64,000 bases of DNA from Candidatus Sulfotelmatobacter sp. (lineage in GTDB: Bacteria > Acidobacteriota > Terriglobia > Terriglobales > Acidobacteriaceae). Positions within the stretch are counted from its first letter, which is position 1; each line of letters begins with the position of its first letter. The notes beneath the pieces were generated by a model. The model saw nothing but the letters and a program-made list of their open reading frames with translations. It was not told the origin of the DNA and ran no database searches. Positions 48,519-58,186 of the stretch are shown piece by piece. A program made the translations under genes and the position numbers. The stretch spans positions 1-64,000 of the forward strand of contig JASHOH010000015.1 of the NCBI GenBank assembly GCA_030041215.1. The letters run 5' to 3'.

Positions 48519-48640
48519 TATCGAACGCCAGTTCTGCTAGTGAGTGCGGCCGGTATTCTCGCAATCGTCATTGCGGAATCGTCGGCCAGTCGTCCTTTCT
48601 CCGTGGATGTTCTTTACGTATTTCCCACTTTCATGATTAG
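48519..48640 (+). pseudogene. Possible remnant of a sensor-kinase N-terminal membrane segment
   Basis: PVLLVSAAGILAIVIAESSASRPFSVDVLYVFPTFMIS resembles LIVASILIAGIAAVDWWATHYISLGFLYLFPIIIL of the kinase at 55765; in-frame TAA just upstream; no downstream kinase. Confidence 0.35.
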
Positions 48641-50133
48641 CTCTTGGGAACGTCCGCGCGGTTCCACCACCCGCCACCAAGCGCCTGGAACAATGCTGCG
48701 GTATCCGCATACCGATTGGCCTGCGCCTGCACCAGGTTGATCACGGCTTGCTGATAGGCCTGTTCCGCGCTTAACAGGGCGAGATAGCTCACGTAGCCCG
48801 CCTGCATTTGCCGCGTCGTAAGGTCGAGCGTCACCTTCGCTGCATCGCGTGCAGCGACCGCAGCCTTCAGACCGTCGGCGTCTTGCTCAAGGGCATGGAG
48901 CGTGTCGGCAACATTCTGAAACGCGGTCAACACCGTGCTGCGATATTGTTCATCGGCCTGAACGTAGGCTGCCCTGGCGGCCCGCTCTTTGTGCATCAGA
49001 GTGCCGCCCTGGAAGATGGGCTGAGTAACGCTTGCGGTTGCGTCGCGAAAACCATTTCCGGCTGAAAATATGTTGCCGAACGCCAGAGCCATGCTGCCGA
49101 TATCGCCGGTCAGGTTAAAGCTGGGCAGGCGATTCGCGCGCGCGACTCCAATGACGGCGCTTGCGGAATGCAGGTTTTCCTCGGCCTGGAGCACATCGGG
49201 GCGCTGCTCTACGAGCTTCGACGGGAGGGTCAAGGGAAGTTCCTGCGGAAGCTGCAGACTGGACAACTCAAACTTCTCGATCAGATCTTCGTTGGGAAAT
49301 CCGCCCGATAGTACGGCCAGCAGATCACGCTGTTGAGCGAGTTGTTTTAGCAGCGGCGGCAATGTGGCGGTGACTTGAGCAAGCTGTGCTTCCTGCGCAG
49401 CTACATCGAGCCGACCGACATATCCTTTTTCGAATTGCTTGCGCAATACTTCCAGCATGTGGGTGCTGATTTCGACGAGTTGGTTGGTCGCGTCAATCTG
49501 CGCGCGTAAAGAGGCTTCCTGGATAGCTGCGGCGGCTACATTGGAACTCAAAGTGATATTCGTCGCGGCCACAACGTAACGCGCCTGCTCTTGCTGCGCC
49601 TTCAAGGACTCCACCGTGCGGCGGTTCAGGCCGAAGACGTCTGGTACAAATGAAACGCTAACCTCCGGGGTAAAGAGGCTGTATTGAAATGTGGTGAAGC
49701 TAGGCACCGGCGAGATTTCTTCGGATGTTTTCGCTCGGGTCGCAGAGAAGCTTCCCGAAATGCTCGGATAGTACGCGCCCCGCTGCGCCAAAACGTTTTC
49801 GCGCGCAACCAACAGCGCAGCTTGCGCCGATTTGAGATCGGGATTGTTCTTGAGAGAACGCTCAATCAAGTCGTTGAGCGGTTTCGAGTGAAATAACGTC
49901 CACCAGTCTCCGGGAATATCGCGCCCTTGGGCAAACGTTTGTGCTTCTCCGCCTGTGACGTTGGGACTGCTGCTCGTGGTCGCAGGCAGGCTGGGCGTAT
50001 AGCCGGGGACATTGGGTGCAGCTGGTCTTTTGTAGTTTGGACCGACCGCACAGCCCGCGGTGATTAGCATCGCCAATATCGCGGTGAGACCCGAGCTGAC
50101 ATCAATGATGCGTATTTTGCGATTAACACTCAT
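48637..50133 (-). CDS. RND efflux outer-membrane lipoprotein (NodT/OprM-like)
   Basis: TAGCAVGPNYKRPAAPNVP; FQALGGGWW C-terminus. Confidence 0.92.
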   Translation of the reverse strand: MSVNRKIRIIDVSSGLTAILAMLITAGCAVGPNYKRPAAPNVPGYTPSLPATTSSSPNVTGGEAQTFAQGRDIPGDWWTLFHSKPLNDLIERSLKNNPDLKSAQAALLVARENVLAQRGAYYPSISGSFSATRAKTSEEISPVPSFTTFQYSLFTPEVSVSFVPDVFGLNRRTVESLKAQQEQARYVVAATNITLSSNVAAAAIQEASLRAQIDATNQLVEISTHMLEVLRKQFEKGYVGRLDVAAQEAQLAQVTATLPPLLKQLAQQRDLLAVLSGGFPNEDLIEKFELSSLQLPQELPLTLPSKLVEQRPDVLQAEENLHSASAVIGVARANRLPSFNLTGDIGSMALAFGNIFSAGNGFRDATASVTQPIFQGGTLMHKERAARAAYVQADEQYRSTVLTAFQNVADTLHALEQDADGLKAAVAARDAAKVTLDLTTRQMQAGYVSYLALLSAEQAYQQAVINLVQAQANRYADTAALFQALGGGWWNRADVPKS

Positions 50134-50139
50134 AGCAAT

Positions 50140-50694
50140 CTAGGGTTTGTGCTTCATGTTGGTTCCGTTGATGGCTGCCGTGCCTCTGGGTGAAGTCGGG
50201 GGTCCTCCACTGACGGCCAAGCGCGCGCCTGGATCGCGGGAATTCTTAAACTGCTGTCCATTTAAGGGGACAGCGGATGGGGGCGCAGACGGGCGCCGGC
50301 TGACCGCTTTGTTTGGAACGTTAGTGACCGCCTTTGAGCCCGTCTGCTCTGGCGCGGCGCCGCTTCCGGGCGTGTCAGTGTGAGGGCTGTTCGTTGTTGG
50401 CGTCTTCGCTGGACGCGGTTGATGACTCGGAACCGGCTTGGATTGGCTCGCACTTGGACGACGTTTGGTTGTAATTCGCGTTACGCTTGCCGACTGTTCT
50501 TGACTCTGATCAGCTTCTTTCGGGCGCGCCTGGTCTTTCTCGTTACGAACCTCATCTTTCTGCTGGTCGGCAGATTTCTCACTGCTCTGCGCGGGCGCTT
50601 GTTGCGGTGCGGAACTTGCCTGAGCCGCGAGAGTTGCGCCTTGCAGCGAGACCGCAGCGATCATTATCGAGAAAAGAATTCGCACCGCCTTCAT
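50140..50694 (-). CDS. Secreted low-complexity Pro/Ser/Gln-rich protein in RND operon
   Basis: Signal peptide; ATGA overlap with the upstream RND pump gene. Confidence 0.65.
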   Translation of the reverse strand: MKAVRILFSIMIAAVSLQGATLAAQASSAPQQAPAQSSEKSADQQKDEVRNEKDQARPKEADQSQEQSASVTRITTKRRPSASQSKPVPSHQPRPAKTPTTNSPHTDTPGSGAAPEQTGSKAVTNVPNKAVSRRPSAPPSAVPLNGQQFKNSRDPGARLAVSGGPPTSPRGTAAINGTNMKHKP

Positions 50695-53600
50695 TCTGAT
50701 TCCTTCTTTTGGTTTTCTTTAGGCTCCGGCTGATGAGCAGTCAGGTGATGCTCACCGCCGAGGAAGATCAGCCGCAGGGCGGGCACCGCCACAAGCAACA
50801 TGATCGGACCAACTATCATGCCACCGACGATCACGGTGGCGAGCGGGCGCTGCACCTGGCTGCCGATCCCGGTGGAAATCGCAGCGGGCAAAAGGCCTAT
50901 GCCAGCCGAAAGCGCCGTCATCAACAGCGGGCGCATACGAGTCGATGCGGCGCGGTACATCGCATCGACCGGCTTGAAGCCGTGGTGGATTTCCTGATTG
51001 TAGAAAGTGATCATCAAGATGCCGTCCATGACGGACACACCGAACAGTGAAACGAAGCCGATGGCAGCCGATATGCTGAAATTCAGTCCAGAAACGTAGA
51101 GCGCAAGGATGCCGCCGACGATAGCATCAGGAATGCCTGCGAGCGCGAGGATGCAGTCTTTAAAATTGTTGAACAGGCTGTAGAGAAGTCCGGCGATCAG
51201 AATGAAGCTGATTGGTACGATGATCTCCAATCGCTTCTTCGCCTCCTGAAGATCGCCAAACTCACCCGCCCAGATCAGATGGTATCCAGGAGGAAGCTGG
51301 ACGTTCTTTGCGATTCGCGCCTGGGCTTCTTCGACCGTGCCGCCAAGGTCTCGGCCGCGGACGCTAAATTTGACGGGGATGAACCGCTGCACGCTCTCGT
51401 GATACACCCAGGATGCTCCGGTATCCAGGCTGATCGCGGCCAGTTCACTCAAGGGTATGTAGGCGTTGGCGCCGCTAGCGGTCGTGTAGGCAACCTTGAT
51501 GTTGCGGATTTTATCGATGCTGTCGCGGTATTCGGGCGTGTAACGCACCACGAGGTCGAATTGGCGGTCGCCTTCCAAAACTTCCGTGGCGACGGCGCCA
51601 CCCATAGCTGCCTGAACGACCGAGTTCACATCGCCCGAATTCAGGCCGTAGCGCGCGGCTTTTTCGCGATCTACTTTGATATTGAGGTTCGGCTGGCCGA
51701 GGACCGGGAAAATGCCAAGATCGGTCACGCCGCGAACCTGGCTCATCTGGTCGCGCACCTGGTTCGCAAGATTCGTCAGAACTTCAAGATTGGGACCAAC
51801 GATTTTTACTGAATTCACGCCTTTGACGCCGGAAATCCCCTCCTCGATGTTGTCCTCAATATATTGCGAGAAATTGAAGACGACACCCGGCAGTTCATTG
51901 TTGAACTCGGTTTGAATCTGCTCGGTAAGTTTGTCTTTAGTTAGTCCACGTGGCCATTTGTCAAAAGGCTTGAGTGGCGCGAACAGTTCGACATTGGAAA
52001 ATGGCGAGGCGTCGCTGCCATCATCGGGACGCCCGTGCTGCGAGACAACTGTGATTACCTCGGGATGGCGCAAGAGAACCTCGCGCATCTTTCGCGTAGC
52101 CGCTTCGCCATCTTCAAGCGAGAGGGTGGTCGGCATGGAAGCGCGAATCCAGAAGTTGCCTTCTTCGAGGTGGGGAAGAAATTCGCTGCCGAGCCGGGGC
52201 GCGATCAGGAAGAAGGTCCCGAGCGAAATGACCAGTTCGATTCCGACGACGAGTGCGCGATGGGTCAAAGAGAAGCGCAACGCTGGATTGTAGAGGCGGT
52301 GCAAAATCCGCACGACGAACGTCTCAGCTTCTTTAACGCGCTCGGGAAGCAGGAAAGAAGCAACGACCGGCGTGACGGTGAAGGTCGCGATGAGCGCCCC
52401 GGCGAGCGCGTAGCCATACGTTCGCGCCATTGGGCCGAAAATCTGCCCCTCGACACCCTGCATGGTGAACAGCGGCACGAAACCGGCGACCGTGATCAGT
52501 GCTGAGAACAGAACCGCCTTGTCCACTTGGAGCGCGCTGATTAGAATCAGCCGCAAGCGATCGGTCCAGCCAGGTACTTTAGTTATATGGTCCGGAGCAT
52601 GCGTCGGATCAGGTCCCCAGAAACCCTCCGCCAAACGCTGCAACAAGCCCCGTCTTTCTTCGGGCGTTCGTTGAAAATTCTTGAAGATGTTCTCGACCAG
52701 GATTACGGCCGAGTCGACAATGATGCCGAAATCCACCGCGCCCACGGAGAGCAAATTCGCACTTTCGCCAAGAATTACCATGAGGATCGTGGCGAAGAAC
52801 AGTGCAAACGGGATGTTGATCCCCACGATCAGCGCGCTGCGAAAATTGCCGAGAAAGATCCATTGGATCAGGAAAACCAGCAGGATTCCGAAAATCAGGT
52901 TGTGCAGAACCGTATGCGTCGTGAGTGCGACCAGGTGCGAGCGGTCATAGAAGGGCACCACGTGCACGCCCGGCGGAAGACTGCCATCATGATTGAGCGT
53001 GTCAATAGCCGCCTTGACCTTGGGAATCATGTCGGCGGTCTTTTCGGTTCGCCTCTGCACCACGATTGCGCCCACCACGTCATCGTGGTTGTCCCGCCCC
53101 AGGATGCCGAGCCGTGGCCGATATCCAACTGAGACCTTGCCGACGTCCTTGATCAGAACAGGGACGCCGTTCTCCTGGCTGAGAACAACATTTTCGATGT
53201 CCTCGACCTTGTAGCCTTGCCGCAAGTCGTCGCTGCCACCGTCATCGATCAGGCCGACCCCACGAATGTTGATCGACTGTTGACCGACGCGGATTTCGCG
53301 CCCGCCTACGTTGATATTTGCGTTGCCGAGCGCGTTGATGATCTGGGGCACGGTGACGCTGTAGGCTTCCAGCTTGTGCGGATCAACCTCAACCTGAAAG
53401 GTTTTCGTAGGCCCACCCCAGCTGTTGACGGCTGCAATGCCAGGAATGGTCAGCAAGCGGCGCGCAACAATCCAGTCTTGAACCGTACGCAGATTCGTAA
53501 TTCCAAAATGCGCCGGACCGACGACCTGGTAGCGGTAGATTTCGCCCGTCGAGCTATTCGCTTGAATTGTTGGTACCAGGCCACCAGGGAGGTTGACGTT

Positions 53601-53948
53601 CTGCTGAAGCGCAACCGAAGCTTGGCTATAGGCAAAGAAATAATCGACCCCGTACTTGAAACTGACTCGAACAAAAGACAGTCCATAGAACGAGGTCGAG
53701 CGGATAACATCGATGCCCGGTGTTGTATAAAGCCCGATCTCCATCGGGCGCGTGTAATAACGCTCCATCTCTTCGGCAGAAAGTCCGGGCGCCTGCGCGG
53801 TAATCTCAAGGATCACCGGCGTCGGGTTCGGGTACGCCTCGATATTGAGGAGCTTGAAGCAGACCAGACCCGCGCCGGTAAACAACAGAAGACCGAACAG
53901 CACAACGGGACGGCGGCTTAGGCAAAATGCTACGAGAGATCGGAACAT
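50691..53948 (-). CDS. CzcA/CusA-family RND efflux permease
   Basis: 1085 aa; LFGLLLFTGAGLVCFKLLNIEAYPNPTPVILEITAQAPGLSAEEMERYYTRPMEIGLYTTPGI. Confidence 0.94.
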   Translation of the reverse strand: MFRSLVAFCLSRRPVVLFGLLLFTGAGLVCFKLLNIEAYPNPTPVILEITAQAPGLSAEEMERYYTRPMEIGLYTTPGIDVIRSTSFYGLSFVRVSFKYGVDYFFAYSQASVALQQNVNLPGGLVPTIQANSSTGEIYRYQVVGPAHFGITNLRTVQDWIVARRLLTIPGIAAVNSWGGPTKTFQVEVDPHKLEAYSVTVPQIINALGNANINVGGREIRVGQQSINIRGVGLIDDGGSDDLRQGYKVEDIENVVLSQENGVPVLIKDVGKVSVGYRPRLGILGRDNHDDVVGAIVVQRRTEKTADMIPKVKAAIDTLNHDGSLPPGVHVVPFYDRSHLVALTTHTVLHNLIFGILLVFLIQWIFLGNFRSALIVGINIPFALFFATILMVILGESANLLSVGAVDFGIIVDSAVILVENIFKNFQRTPEERRGLLQRLAEGFWGPDPTHAPDHITKVPGWTDRLRLILISALQVDKAVLFSALITVAGFVPLFTMQGVEGQIFGPMARTYGYALAGALIATFTVTPVVASFLLPERVKEAETFVVRILHRLYNPALRFSLTHRALVVGIELVISLGTFFLIAPRLGSEFLPHLEEGNFWIRASMPTTLSLEDGEAATRKMREVLLRHPEVITVVSQHGRPDDGSDASPFSNVELFAPLKPFDKWPRGLTKDKLTEQIQTEFNNELPGVVFNFSQYIEDNIEEGISGVKGVNSVKIVGPNLEVLTNLANQVRDQMSQVRGVTDLGIFPVLGQPNLNIKVDREKAARYGLNSGDVNSVVQAAMGGAVATEVLEGDRQFDLVVRYTPEYRDSIDKIRNIKVAYTTASGANAYIPLSELAAISLDTGASWVYHESVQRFIPVKFSVRGRDLGGTVEEAQARIAKNVQLPPGYHLIWAGEFGDLQEAKKRLEIIVPISFILIAGLLYSLFNNFKDCILALAGIPDAIVGGILALYVSGLNFSISAAIGFVSLFGVSVMDGILMITFYNQEIHHGFKPVDAMYRAASTRMRPLLMTALSAGIGLLPAAISTGIGSQVQRPLATVIVGGMIVGPIMLLVAVPALRLIFLGGEHHLTAHQPEPKENQKKESE

Positions 53949-54003
53949 GGTTTATCTACGAACATGGTTTATGAACTCAATGAACACGCGCCGGCGGTCA
54001 CAC

Positions 54004-55209
54004 CTAATCGCTCGGCGGCGCCCCCAGCATGTTGCTAAGGAAGACCGCTCCATCGCTCACCACGAGTTCTCCCTGCTTGAGGCCATCGAGAATCTGAACG
54101 CGGTTATCTTTTCGCAGCCCAACCTTGATGATTCTTTCTGTAAACCTCTGCCGATCTGTAGTCACCCAGGCAGCCATAGTGCCATCAGGTTCACGGACCA
54201 CTCCGTTTGCCGGTATCGCAGTTGCTTCTACCGGAGCGTCGACTCGGATAACGAAGTTAGCCAGCATCCCAGGACGCAGGTCGTTCTTCGGATCGGTGAT
54301 TTCGGAACGGATCGTAATACGATGTGTGTTTGGGTCGACTGACTCGTAGATCTTGGAAACTTTTCCCTTGAAAACGCGGCCGTCGTAAGCCAATGTCCTA
54401 ACAGCCACCGGCTGCCCGAGATGAAACAACGCGCTCTCGCTTTCCGGCACACTCGCCAGCATCCATTTCAGGTGAACATCGGCTACCGAGTAGGGTGCTG
54501 GTGGATTCCCTGGCTGCACGAAAAACCCCGGCTGCGCGTTCTTGTATGTCACCTTGCCGCGAATGGGGCTGCGTACAACCAGCGCGGGATCAATCTTGCG
54601 GGATGCAATCATCTGATCGATTTCGCCATCCGTCTTGCCGAACACGAGAACCGCGTCACGCGCGGCTTTAAGTGCGCCCTCGGCAGTCTGTTGATCGGAA
54701 ACCGCCTGCTCCAACTCTCTCTGGGGAACGCCGACGCTCGTCGTGTAAAGGTCCTTGGCGCGTGCCAGTTCTTTGGTGGTCAGTTCGTAGGTGGCGGCAG
54801 CGCCAATCAGGTTTGACTCGGCCTGGATGAGGTCCGGGCTCTTGATCGTGTAGAGGGGCTGATCCTTCTGAACTTCCGCCCCAAGTTCCACAAACGTCTT
54901 GATGATGGTTCCCTGATAAGGCGGGAAGACCTGGACTGAGAGGTCCCCGTCATAGTCAATATTGCCAACCGCCTCTTTTTCAACGGGAAACGCGTAGCTC
55001 CCGACGGCTTCGATCTTGATCGAGTTCAGTTGGCTCGGCGATAGATCTACCGTCGGAGCGGACTGCGCGGAGTCCGTCGCTGAGCCGCTTCCACTTGGCG
55101 CATTCGCGGTCGCTGAGTGACCACAGCTGGATAGGAAAACCGCTGCCGCAATTCCCGCGAAGGTGACAAGTCCTGCAACCGTTATTCTGCTGGGTGCTGA
55201 ATCCTTCAT
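54004..55209 (-). CDS. RND efflux periplasmic adaptor (HlyD/CusB-like)
   Basis: PYQGTIIKTFVELGAEVQKDQPLYTIKSPDL...RSPIRGKVTYKNAQPGFFVQPG. Confidence 0.92.
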   Translation of the reverse strand: MKDSAPSRITVAGLVTFAGIAAAVFLSSCGHSATANAPSGSGSATDSAQSAPTVDLSPSQLNSIKIEAVGSYAFPVEKEAVGNIDYDGDLSVQVFPPYQGTIIKTFVELGAEVQKDQPLYTIKSPDLIQAESNLIGAAATYELTTKELARAKDLYTTSVGVPQRELEQAVSDQQTAEGALKAARDAVLVFGKTDGEIDQMIASRKIDPALVVRSPIRGKVTYKNAQPGFFVQPGNPPAPYSVADVHLKWMLASVPESESALFHLGQPVAVRTLAYDGRVFKGKVSKIYESVDPNTHRITIRSEITDPKNDLRPGMLANFVIRVDAPVEATAIPANGVVREPDGTMAAWVTTDRQRFTERIIKVGLRKDNRVQILDGLKQGELVVSDGAVFLSNMLGAPPSD

Positions 55210-55293
55210 GCTGTACTCGCTTGCCCCTCAATGCCCCGAAACCTTCTGGTCGCGCAATTCGCGAGCCATGACCCGATTCCGGGGACGCTATTT

Positions 55294-55551
55294 TTATTGC
55301 CATGGCTCTATGATAATCGGTGCCCTTAACTCCATAATACCGGCATAGAGCAAACCGCCATACAGGAGCACGCCAAACAGCCCTATGGCCACCAACACGT
55401 ACCGATTCCATGTCTCGTACTTCAACCAGGTGCTCCCGAAAACCCAGGATCCCTGTCCTTGGCGCCCCGGTCGCGACACTTCCGAGCCTTCGCGCGTCTT
55501 TTCGCGAACACCTGGCAACAGAGCGCGAACCGCAGAAGCCCGTGCCCTCAT
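55294..55551 (-). CDS. Possible small single-TM protein upstream of RND adaptor
   Basis: ...ETWNRYVLVAIGLFGVLLYGGLLYAGIMELRAPIIIEPWQ. Confidence 0.4.
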   Translation of the reverse strand: MRARASAVRALLPGVREKTREGSEVSRPGRQGQGSWVFGSTWLKYETWNRYVLVAIGLFGVLLYGGLLYAGIMELRAPIIIEPWQ

Positions 55552-55764
55552 GGAATGAGGCGTTGCGATTTCTAGTATTCGCTCTCAGTAGTTCCGCGGC
55601 TGATTTAAGTGTAAGTCCGCGCGTAGGTACGCACTTCGTATCTTTCAGTTGCTGCCCCATATCGTTTGGAACCCCTGGGAGCCTATCTTTTGGACACTCG
55701 GCAGGAAAACTGTTTTCAGAAGCTGGGAAAATAGCGCAAGATTTAGGAAGGGATTGACGACATC

Positions 55765-57144
55765 ATGGACCTGCTTTCGATGTATGCGCCGGCGAACTGT
55801 AGGAGAATGCTTATCGTCGCCAGTATTCTCATTGCAGGGATCGCAGCGGTCGATTGGTGGGCAACCCACTACATCTCATTGGGTTTCCTGTATCTGTTTC
55901 CGATCATTATCCTCGGAGGATTTCTGTCCCGTACGCAAATTGTCGGGATTGCTCTGCTTTGCGCAGTACTCCAGGAGGCTTTTAGCAATCTGCCTGAGAG
56001 TGAAGCAGTGATTCGCCTGGTATTCAGTTCTGTTGGATTTGTCGGCACAGGGCTCTTCATCTCTGAAATGGTCCGCAACCGGCGAATCGTCCTCAGGCAC
56101 TCTGAAGAACTGGAGGATGCCGAGCGGCAGCTGCGGTCGCTTGTCGAAAGCAGTCCGGCGGCGATTCTGACGATTGACTCTGATGGCAACGTTCTGTTGG
56201 CCAATGCGGCTGCGCAGCAGTTGCTTTCTCCCGGTGCCGCGCCCCTGCAGGGGCAGTCAATCAAGTCTTACCTTCCCGCTCTGCAAACGGTGCTCAAGAC
56301 ACAACCGGCGCGCTCATTTCGGACCACGCTGCAATGCACAGGGCAAAGAACTGATGGAGAGGTTTTCTTGGCTGGAGTGTGGTTTTCCACTTATAAAACG
56401 CTGTCTGGCCCGCGTTTAGCAGCAATCATCGTGGACCTATCCGAGGACCTCCGCAACCGCGAAGATCTTAGCTTGGACCATCTGTTAAAGAACTCCAGAA
56501 TTCTGATGAGTACCGTGGCCCATGAAATTCGCAACTTGAGTGGTGCGGTTCTGGTGGTTCACAAGAACCTGTCGCGAATCAAAGAACTTGAGACAAATGA
56601 AGACTTTCGGGCTCTGGGCGGATTGATCCAAAGCCTGGAACGCATCTCAGCCTTGGAGCTAGGGTCCACACCGGCGCAGAACGGAGAGGTGGTGGAACTT
56701 ACTTCGGTGTTGGATGAGTTACGAATTCTGATCGAAACCACCTATCACGAGTCGGAAATCAGGGTGGAGTGGGCTACTCAGGAACAACTGCCTCTGGTTT
56801 GGGCGGACCGGTATGGGCTGGTTCAGGTTTTCTTGAATTTGGCTAAGAACAGCCAGCGGGCCATGATGTCAACTCAGACAAAACTCTTGCGCATCGCTGC
56901 ACGGGAGGAGAACGGCAAGGTCATAATTCGATTCGAAGACACCGGCACGGGCGTTATCTCGTCTGAAAACCTATTCCGGCCATTTCAGCGGGGGGCCAAA
57001 TCTAGCGGTATCGGTCTCTATGTTTCGCGAGCAATCATGCGCAGTTTTGGCGGCGACCTCACTTTTGAACCTCGATCCGAAGGGTCCTGCTTTGCTGTCG
57101 TGTTGCCTTTGTACGTCGCTGCGGAGGAAGCCGTAAATGCCTAG
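55765..57144 (+). CDS. Membrane sensor histidine kinase with PAS domain
   Basis: N-terminal TM segments; HEIRNLSGAV; VFLNLAKNSQRAM; DTGTGV; SSGIGLYVSRAIM. Confidence 0.9.
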   Translation: MDLLSMYAPANCRRMLIVASILIAGIAAVDWWATHYISLGFLYLFPIIILGGFLSRTQIVGIALLCAVLQEAFSNLPESEAVIRLVFSSVGFVGTGLFISEMVRNRRIVLRHSEELEDAERQLRSLVESSPAAILTIDSDGNVLLANAAAQQLLSPGAAPLQGQSIKSYLPALQTVLKTQPARSFRTTLQCTGQRTDGEVFLAGVWFSTYKTLSGPRLAAIIVDLSEDLRNREDLSLDHLLKNSRILMSTVAHEIRNLSGAVLVVHKNLSRIKELETNEDFRALGGLIQSLERISALELGSTPAQNGEVVELTSVLDELRILIETTYHESEIRVEWATQEQLPLVWADRYGLVQVFLNLAKNSQRAMMSTQTKLLRIAAREENGKVIIRFEDTGTGVISSENLFRPFQRGAKSSGIGLYVSRAIMRSFGGDLTFEPRSEGSCFAVVLPLYVAAEEAVNA

Positions 57145-57796
57145 AACTGTGGAACAGGCGGCTCGGATCCTGTTGCTGGACGATCACGCGTTGTTTCGGG
57201 AAAGTGTAAGTCGGCTGCTCGGCGCCGAGCCCGGTTTCGAGGTTGTTGCCCACTGCGGAACGATCGTAGAAGCGCTAGAGGTCCTTCGTCGCAAACCCAT
57301 TGACCTGATCCTCCTTGACTTCGATCTGGGCGCCGAGCACGACGGACGAGAATTTCTCCGATTAGCGAAGGAACAGGGATTCAACGGAAAGGTTCTTGTT
57401 GTGACAGCAGGGATAGACCCCGGCGCTGTATCGGACTTGATTCGCTCCGGCGTTTCAGGAGTTTTTCACAAACACGATTCCGCTGGATTACTGGCCCAAG
57501 GAATCCGCGATGTGATGGCTGGCAAGGTTTGGCTGGATCAGGAGCAGTTGCAGACAGCTCTGGCGCCCGAAGTTGCCACTCCCAGAGTGGCCGGGCCTCG
57601 ACAATTTACGGATCGAGAGCGACAAGTTCTTTCTTTTGTGTTCGACGGTCTTGCGAACAAGGAAATTGCCGCCAGGATCGGGGTCTCTGAGGGCTCCGTG
57701 AAATCCACTCTTCAGCAGCTCTTTTCGAAGACCGGAGTCCGCACGCGTAGCCAACTGGTACGCGTTGTTTTGGAACAGTATAGGGACCAGATCTAG
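57137..57796 (+). CDS. NarL/FixJ-type response regulator (LuxR HTH)
   Basis: LLLDDHALFRESV; LTDRERQVLSF-like FTDRERQVLSFVFDGLANKEIAARIGVSEGSVKSTLQQLF. Confidence 0.94.
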   Translation: MPRTVEQAARILLLDDHALFRESVSRLLGAEPGFEVVAHCGTIVEALEVLRRKPIDLILLDFDLGAEHDGREFLRLAKEQGFNGKVLVVTAGIDPGAVSDLIRSGVSGVFHKHDSAGLLAQGIRDVMAGKVWLDQEQLQTALAPEVATPRVAGPRQFTDRERQVLSFVFDGLANKEIAARIGVSEGSVKSTLQQLFSKTGVRTRSQLVRVVLEQYRDQI

Positions 57797-57870
57797 CATC
57801 TCTCCGAGGTTTCGGCTGTGTTGGAGTGATCCGATTCCGATTCGCGCTTGTGGCAGCGTATATACCTTGA

Positions 57871-58009
57871 GAGTGGATGGCGCTCTTCCTTGCCGCGCAC
57901 GATCACCCAATCAGGCTTGATTTTTCCATTTCTTCCAACAGCAGGGTTTGCAGTAGCGCCACTGCTTGCCGATACGGACGTACTTCCAGACGGACACGCG
58001 TGTGTTCAT
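57871..58009 (-). pseudogene. Truncated, frameshifted phage-type integrase N-terminus
   Basis: MNTRVSVWKYVRIGKQWRYCK-P then shifted frame PAVGRNGKIKPDWVIVRGKEERHP; one extra C in the CCC at ~57944-57946. Confidence 0.65.
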
Positions 58010-58096
58010 GGGCGAATCCTTTCCGCCCTTAGAACGTATCCCGGAATACTAGGGGAGTACTAGGTGACGACCCTAATCGGTTGAAACCAAAGTTGC

Positions 58097-58186
58097 TGGT
58101 GCCGGGAGGGGGAATCGAACCCCCACAGGGCTTTTGGCCCCTGCGGATTTTAAGTCCGCTGCGTCTGCCAATTTCGCCATCCCGGC
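58097..58186 (-). tRNA. tRNA-Leu (anticodon UAA), CCA encoded
   Basis: GCCGGGATGGCGAAATTGGCAGACGCAGCGGACTTAAAATCCGCAGGGGCCAAAAGCCCTGTGGGGGTTCGATTCCCCCTCCCGGCACCA. Confidence 0.95.

Follow-up and report, generated by a model that had tools for sequence, protein, structure and literature searches.

The flanks of tRNA genes are a recurrent target of the tyrosine recombinases of mobile elements, and arm-binding domains together with their arm sites are established in these enzymes (PMC8138268). The mobilizable element NBU1 uses the 3' end of a tRNA-Leu gene as its integration site (Shoemaker 1996, cited in PMC8138268), and genomic islands with degenerate integrases and tRNAs have been described in Acidobacteria (PMC3174227). 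A literature search for the integrase family considered here returned no paper on it in Candidatus Sulfotelmatobacter. The window, the whole stretch of 64,000 nucleotides analyzed, lies on contig C94 of a draft Candidatus Sulfotelmatobacter genome of 251 contigs (G000) and harbors a broken integrase gene beside tRNA-Leu(UAA). We consider it highly probable that an integrative element of an acidobacterial lambda/Tn1549-like tyrosine recombinase family once integrated at the 3' end of this tRNA and then decayed to a stub. The locus would then be the fossil of an integration site in a soil lineage with few cultured members, an ordinary genome scar of a known kind.

The integrase remnant and its truncation

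The features of the locus are the following.

58097..58186, minus strand: tRNA-Leu(UAA) gene (ARAGORN), whose 3' end is the probable attachment (attB/attL) core, as intact integrases lie at the same tRNA in G024 and G002
58010..58096, minus strand: putative fossil attL leader, from the tRNA 3' end to the integrase start codon (82% match over 50 bp in G001; CCA and ACTTT-like start)
58043..58067, minus strand: tandem direct repeat TCACCTAGTACTCC / TCCCCTAGTATTCC, period 11 bp, candidate integrase arm-binding site (shuffle p 0.002)
57944..58009, minus strand: integrase remnant, piece 1, MNTRVSVWKYVRIGKQWRYCKP (similarity to relatives)
57874..57945, minus strand: integrase remnant, piece 2, PAVGRNGKIKPDWVIVRGKEERHP, in another frame; similarity to relatives stops here
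57797..57873, no strand assigned: junction stretch from the last recognizable integrase codon to the response-regulator stop, without integrase similarity; the block similarity ends at 57792-57798
48637..57796, no strand assigned: five-gene efflux/two-component module (OMF, RND, MFP, histidine kinase and LuxR-type response regulator, from Pfam), judged to lie outside the element from its exact ends in relatives, where it sits elsewhere and without a tRNA

The tRNA-Leu(UAA) gene is the only tRNA gene detected by ARAGORN in the window. The remnant opens with an ATG at 58009 on the minus strand, leaving 87 bp between the tRNA 3' end and the start codon, and continues to 57874 as a frameshifted 45-residue N-terminus that corresponds to ~12% of the integrase. 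The preliminary description had proposed a frameshifted integrase remnant resembling the N-terminus of tyrosine recombinases, with its start 88 positions from the end of tRNA-Leu(UAA) on the same strand. Both the identity and the coordinates were confirmed. The joined peptide matched same-genus full-length proteins carrying PF00589 with E values down to 1.9e-12 (G002; 6.8e-10 in G005). It also matched a decayed copy in G020 (E 1.1e-10) and three other loci in its own genome (E 1.5e-7 to 2.5e-4). The two halves aligned separately to intact integrases, with 53% identity to INT_L010 over residues 3-32 and 92% to INT_L125 over 12 residues, and the two pieces scored 2.8e-9 and 5.1e-7 against a profile of family N-termini in which the remnant is itself a row. 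A Pfam search with the 45-residue piece alone returned nothing, and the identification therefore rests on the full-length homologues. On these comparisons, the resemblance to recombinases is not one of chance.

The intact homologues carry the Phage_integrase domain PF00589 (E 4.8e-15 to 1e-25) and match a PHROG integrase family at 1e-49, and their profile matches XerC-like, XerA, XerD, Tn1549 Int and HP1 Int entries of the PDB. The predicted fold of an intact homologue resembles lambda Int and Tn1549 Int, and the residues R, K, HxxR, H and Y are invariant across a 12-row alignment. Homologues found by name come almost entirely from Terriglobia/Acidobacteriaceae, including Candidatus Sulfotelmatobacter, and the N-termini profile found matches in 43 of the 250 genomes of the class. 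Decay of these integrases looks common, with roughly one third of the profile-found copies lying in frames of ~200 codons or fewer, a hand count to which contig ends contribute.

The similarity check suggested for 57797-58010 gave a divided answer, with 58009-57874 matching recombinases and no such match detected from 57873 down to 57797, past the HP residues. Besides its frameshift, the gene therefore has a truncation, and ~88% of it is gone. A search of the whole of contig C94, window included, for the missing parts of the integrase found none, and the stub is the only recognized element gene. Since the catalytic domain (R, K, HxxR, H/W, Y) is absent, the window copy is a remnant of the PF00589 tyrosine recombinase family rather than a working member and is non-functional. 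We regard it as highly improbable that a chimeric contig or a sequencing indel made the gene look broken. A false join at 57797-57873 is conceivable in a draft of this kind, and the contigs of relatives often end at tRNA-Leu(UAA) (G002, G007, G010 and G016). However, the tRNA, leader and stub are single-copy in the assembly and thus offer no repeat to cause a misjoin, an indel is unable to remove ~88% of a gene, and the leader matches an independent genome (G001).

The tRNA target and the attachment leader

Of the 20 homologous loci examined first, 13 showed a tRNA (Ser or Asn) followed by the integrase on the same strand. Among the 80 named loci, a tRNA or a tRNA 3' motif was present just upstream in 39 (mostly Ser, also Pro and Leu), and those without an upstream tRNA were mostly more distant homologues. 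The start of intact relatives usually lies 70-200 bp beyond a Ser, Asn, Pro or Leu tRNA 3' end on the same strand. Intact members also occupy tRNA-Leu(UAA) itself, namely L124 (G024), with its start codon ~100 bp beyond, and L125 (G002), whose contig starts inside the tRNA 3' end. The window shows the arrangement of a tRNA-targeted element, in which the integrase gene follows immediately on the tRNA 3' end. In front of two integrase genes of the family (L009 and L011) lies no complete tRNA but just ~25 bp from the 3' end of a tRNA-Ser, the pattern expected of an att copy.

The leaders of the family share a plan composed of the tRNA CCA, an ACTTT-like stretch and a pair of direct repeats followed by the integrase. 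The repeats are 6-14 bp long with a period mostly of 11-13 bp, and a repeat at p<0.05 against shuffles was present in 18 of 23 family leaders compared to 5 of 80 control stretches, although the leaders are partly related and a combined p value overstates their independence. The direct repeat of the window leader (TCACCTAGTACTCC / TCCCCTAGTATTCC) provides the arm-site-like feature of an attL and is likely an integrase arm-binding site. Over 50 bp, the window leader also shares 82% identity with the DNA following tRNA-Leu(UAA) in G001 (E 1.7e-7), where the integrase is wholly gone past the leader. The G001 leader appears to be a further scar of this type in a more advanced state of decay, and the window locus appears to be a fossil attL joined to the first ~12% of the integrase gene. 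The conserved leader plan allows scars of this type to be identified after the integrase has disappeared. The earlier proposal of a scar left by a tRNA-targeted integrated element is thereby upheld by the homology, the tRNA placement, the attL-like leader and the intact members at tRNA-Leu(UAA).

The candidate arm repeats differ by site, with TGATACC at many Ser tRNAs, TTTCTAATGTT at Asn and CCTAGTAYTCC or CCTACC at Leu-UAA. A tentative reading, which we hold to be possible though doubtful, is that the arm-site repeat changes with the integrase subgroup on a fixed leader architecture, forming a lineage-specific (mainly Terriglobia) set from which old scars could be typed by the leader alone. 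If so, the fixed attL layout with its subgroup-dependent repeat would offer a way to recognize scars after loss of the integrase, and past integrations could be read from them as in G001.

The tRNA-Leu(UAA) gene itself was found split or duplicated in G014 C13 (L086, L064), G012 C1 (L089), G004 C138 (L093) and G023 C93 (L090), with a 5' part (1-42) and a 3' part (~30-90) lying 0.16 to 19 kb apart. This pattern suggests that another type of element uses this tRNA as well and recombines close to its anticodon loop.

The efflux block and the far end of the element

The response-regulator gene, on the plus strand, stops at 57796 and closes a block containing a complete RND pump (ACR_tran, a CusB-like fusion protein and an outer-membrane factor), a PAS histidine kinase and a LuxR-type regulator, as identified by Pfam. 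The preliminary description had suggested that this block could be former cargo. That the block (48.6-57.8 kb) was carried by the lost element and left behind when the integrase died is a tempting reading, as it directly abuts the scar and has moved, its place differing in every relative examined, but we judge it very unlikely. The five-gene module recurs in G005, G006, G010, G013 and G016 with 72-83% DNA identity, and in all five the similarity runs out at the response-regulator stop codon (57792-57798). Beyond the regulator the sequence is unrelated among all six genomes, and the 1.7-4 kb covered in the five relatives contains neither a tRNA nor an integrase of the remnant's family. At the opposite end the similarity to G016 stops at 48638, where cox/cyoE genes flank the block in the window and a different ORF in G016. 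The G+C and base composition of the block also resemble its surroundings, giving no sign of foreign origin. Loci of the module (L098, L099, L100, L101, L102, L116 and L118) have different neighbors in each genome. Because of the exact ends and different neighbors in relatives, the five genes are most readily taken for an independent, relocating module that probably came to lie next to the scar at a later time or by accident. The adjacent efflux genes thus did not appear to arrive with the element.

Even when up to three mismatches were allowed, the window contained no second copy of the tRNA 3' end, and the proposed direct repeat to the left of the block was accordingly absent from the 48 kb on that side. 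Elsewhere in the assembly, a tRNA-Leu 3' end occurred in tRNA-Leu(CAA), as a displaced copy of the CAA type on C12 and as a single exact copy of the UAA type, 22 bp long, on C35. The C35 orphan (core C35:30739-30763, in L208, G000:C35:21000-40900) sits between an apparent arsR-arsM-arsC-aquaporin operon, named from translations, and host-like genes. It could be the lost right end (attR); nothing connects C94 and C35, no attR linked to the window was found, and the flanks of the orphan were seen beside tRNA-Leu in no relative examined. The displaced copy on C12 (L209, G000:C12:4807-4831) covers tRNA-Leu(CAA) from the anticodon region up to its 3' end, lies close to a contig end and resembles the distal boundary of a different island.

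Among the relatives examined, only G010 shares with G000 a cupin gene immediately before tRNA-Leu, and the G010 contig is interrupted within the tRNA. The G010 DNA downstream of tRNA-Leu gave scattered paralogue-like matches of 66-69% and a few short matches in G000, spread over six contigs other than C94. None of the relatives has the junction in its exact state before integration (cupin, tRNA-Leu, then G000-like DNA), and for this reason deletion is inferred rather than seen.

Proposed decay of the element and comparison with known systems

In the proposed course of events, a tRNA 3' end carried by the element would have recombined with the chromosomal tRNA, leaving the tRNA intact and placing the left end of the element (attL, with the ACTTT-like motif, the arm-site direct repeat and the integrase gene pointing away from the tRNA) immediately downstream. 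The integrase frame would later have shifted, and everything past about codon 45 would have been deleted or replaced, more probably by deletion than by another rearrangement. This loss would have brought the end of the unrelated efflux/two-component module to within 80 bp.

Other remnants accompany the one in the window. A third related remnant, in G010, has stops and an internal deletion and lies beside a decayed tRNA 3' fragment, and comparable stubs occur at other tRNA ends (L021, L009 and L026). Those of L021 (G016:C484) and L009 (G020:C342) end near codons 52-57, and the former is fused in frame to an unrelated ORF, giving an open frame of 222 codons. The stubs of G000, L021 and L009 all end near codons 45-57, a range in which detection is biased toward stubs retaining the conserved stretch. 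The similar length of stubs beside tRNAs in several relatives (L021, L009) and the still well-formed arm-like repeat of the window would fit a short peptide or regulatory stub that has been retained, for example an arm-site binder blocking related integrases, rather than merely decaying DNA. We nevertheless find such retention extremely improbable, since the frame is broken within the first 25 residues and the remnant ends before the conserved EGxYYxxW, lacking the last strands and the helix of the predicted N-terminal domain. Moreover, G001 has lost the stub completely, and the G010 copy is itself disrupted. Decay of an integrated element to a stub remains the preferred explanation.

The intact relatives of the remnant share with the arm-binding-domain, PF00589 integrases lambda Int and Tn916/Tn1549 Int an N-terminal beta domain, a SAM-like core-binding domain, the catalytic R-K-H-R-H-Y set, tRNA placement and arm-like repeats, whereas the window copy retains ~45 N-terminal residues, frameshifted and without the catalytic domain. 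The integrases of G024 (MAG bog_174, PMXH01000090.1) and G002 (palsa_277, PKXU01000156.1) at tRNA-Leu(UAA) have the same tRNA, strand and a similar leader start, with a start codon ~90-100 bp beyond the tRNA. However, they are intact and do not contain the VIVRGKEERHP segment kept by the window remnant, and so are not its closest relatives in sequence. The likeness to NBU1, a Bacteroides element, is one of target, both attachment sites lying at a tRNA-Leu 3' end. Finally, the Acidobacteria islands of PMC3174227, for which we know of no description of att sites or arm repeats, belong to the same phylum and have tRNA-linked, partly degenerate integrase regions, as found here.
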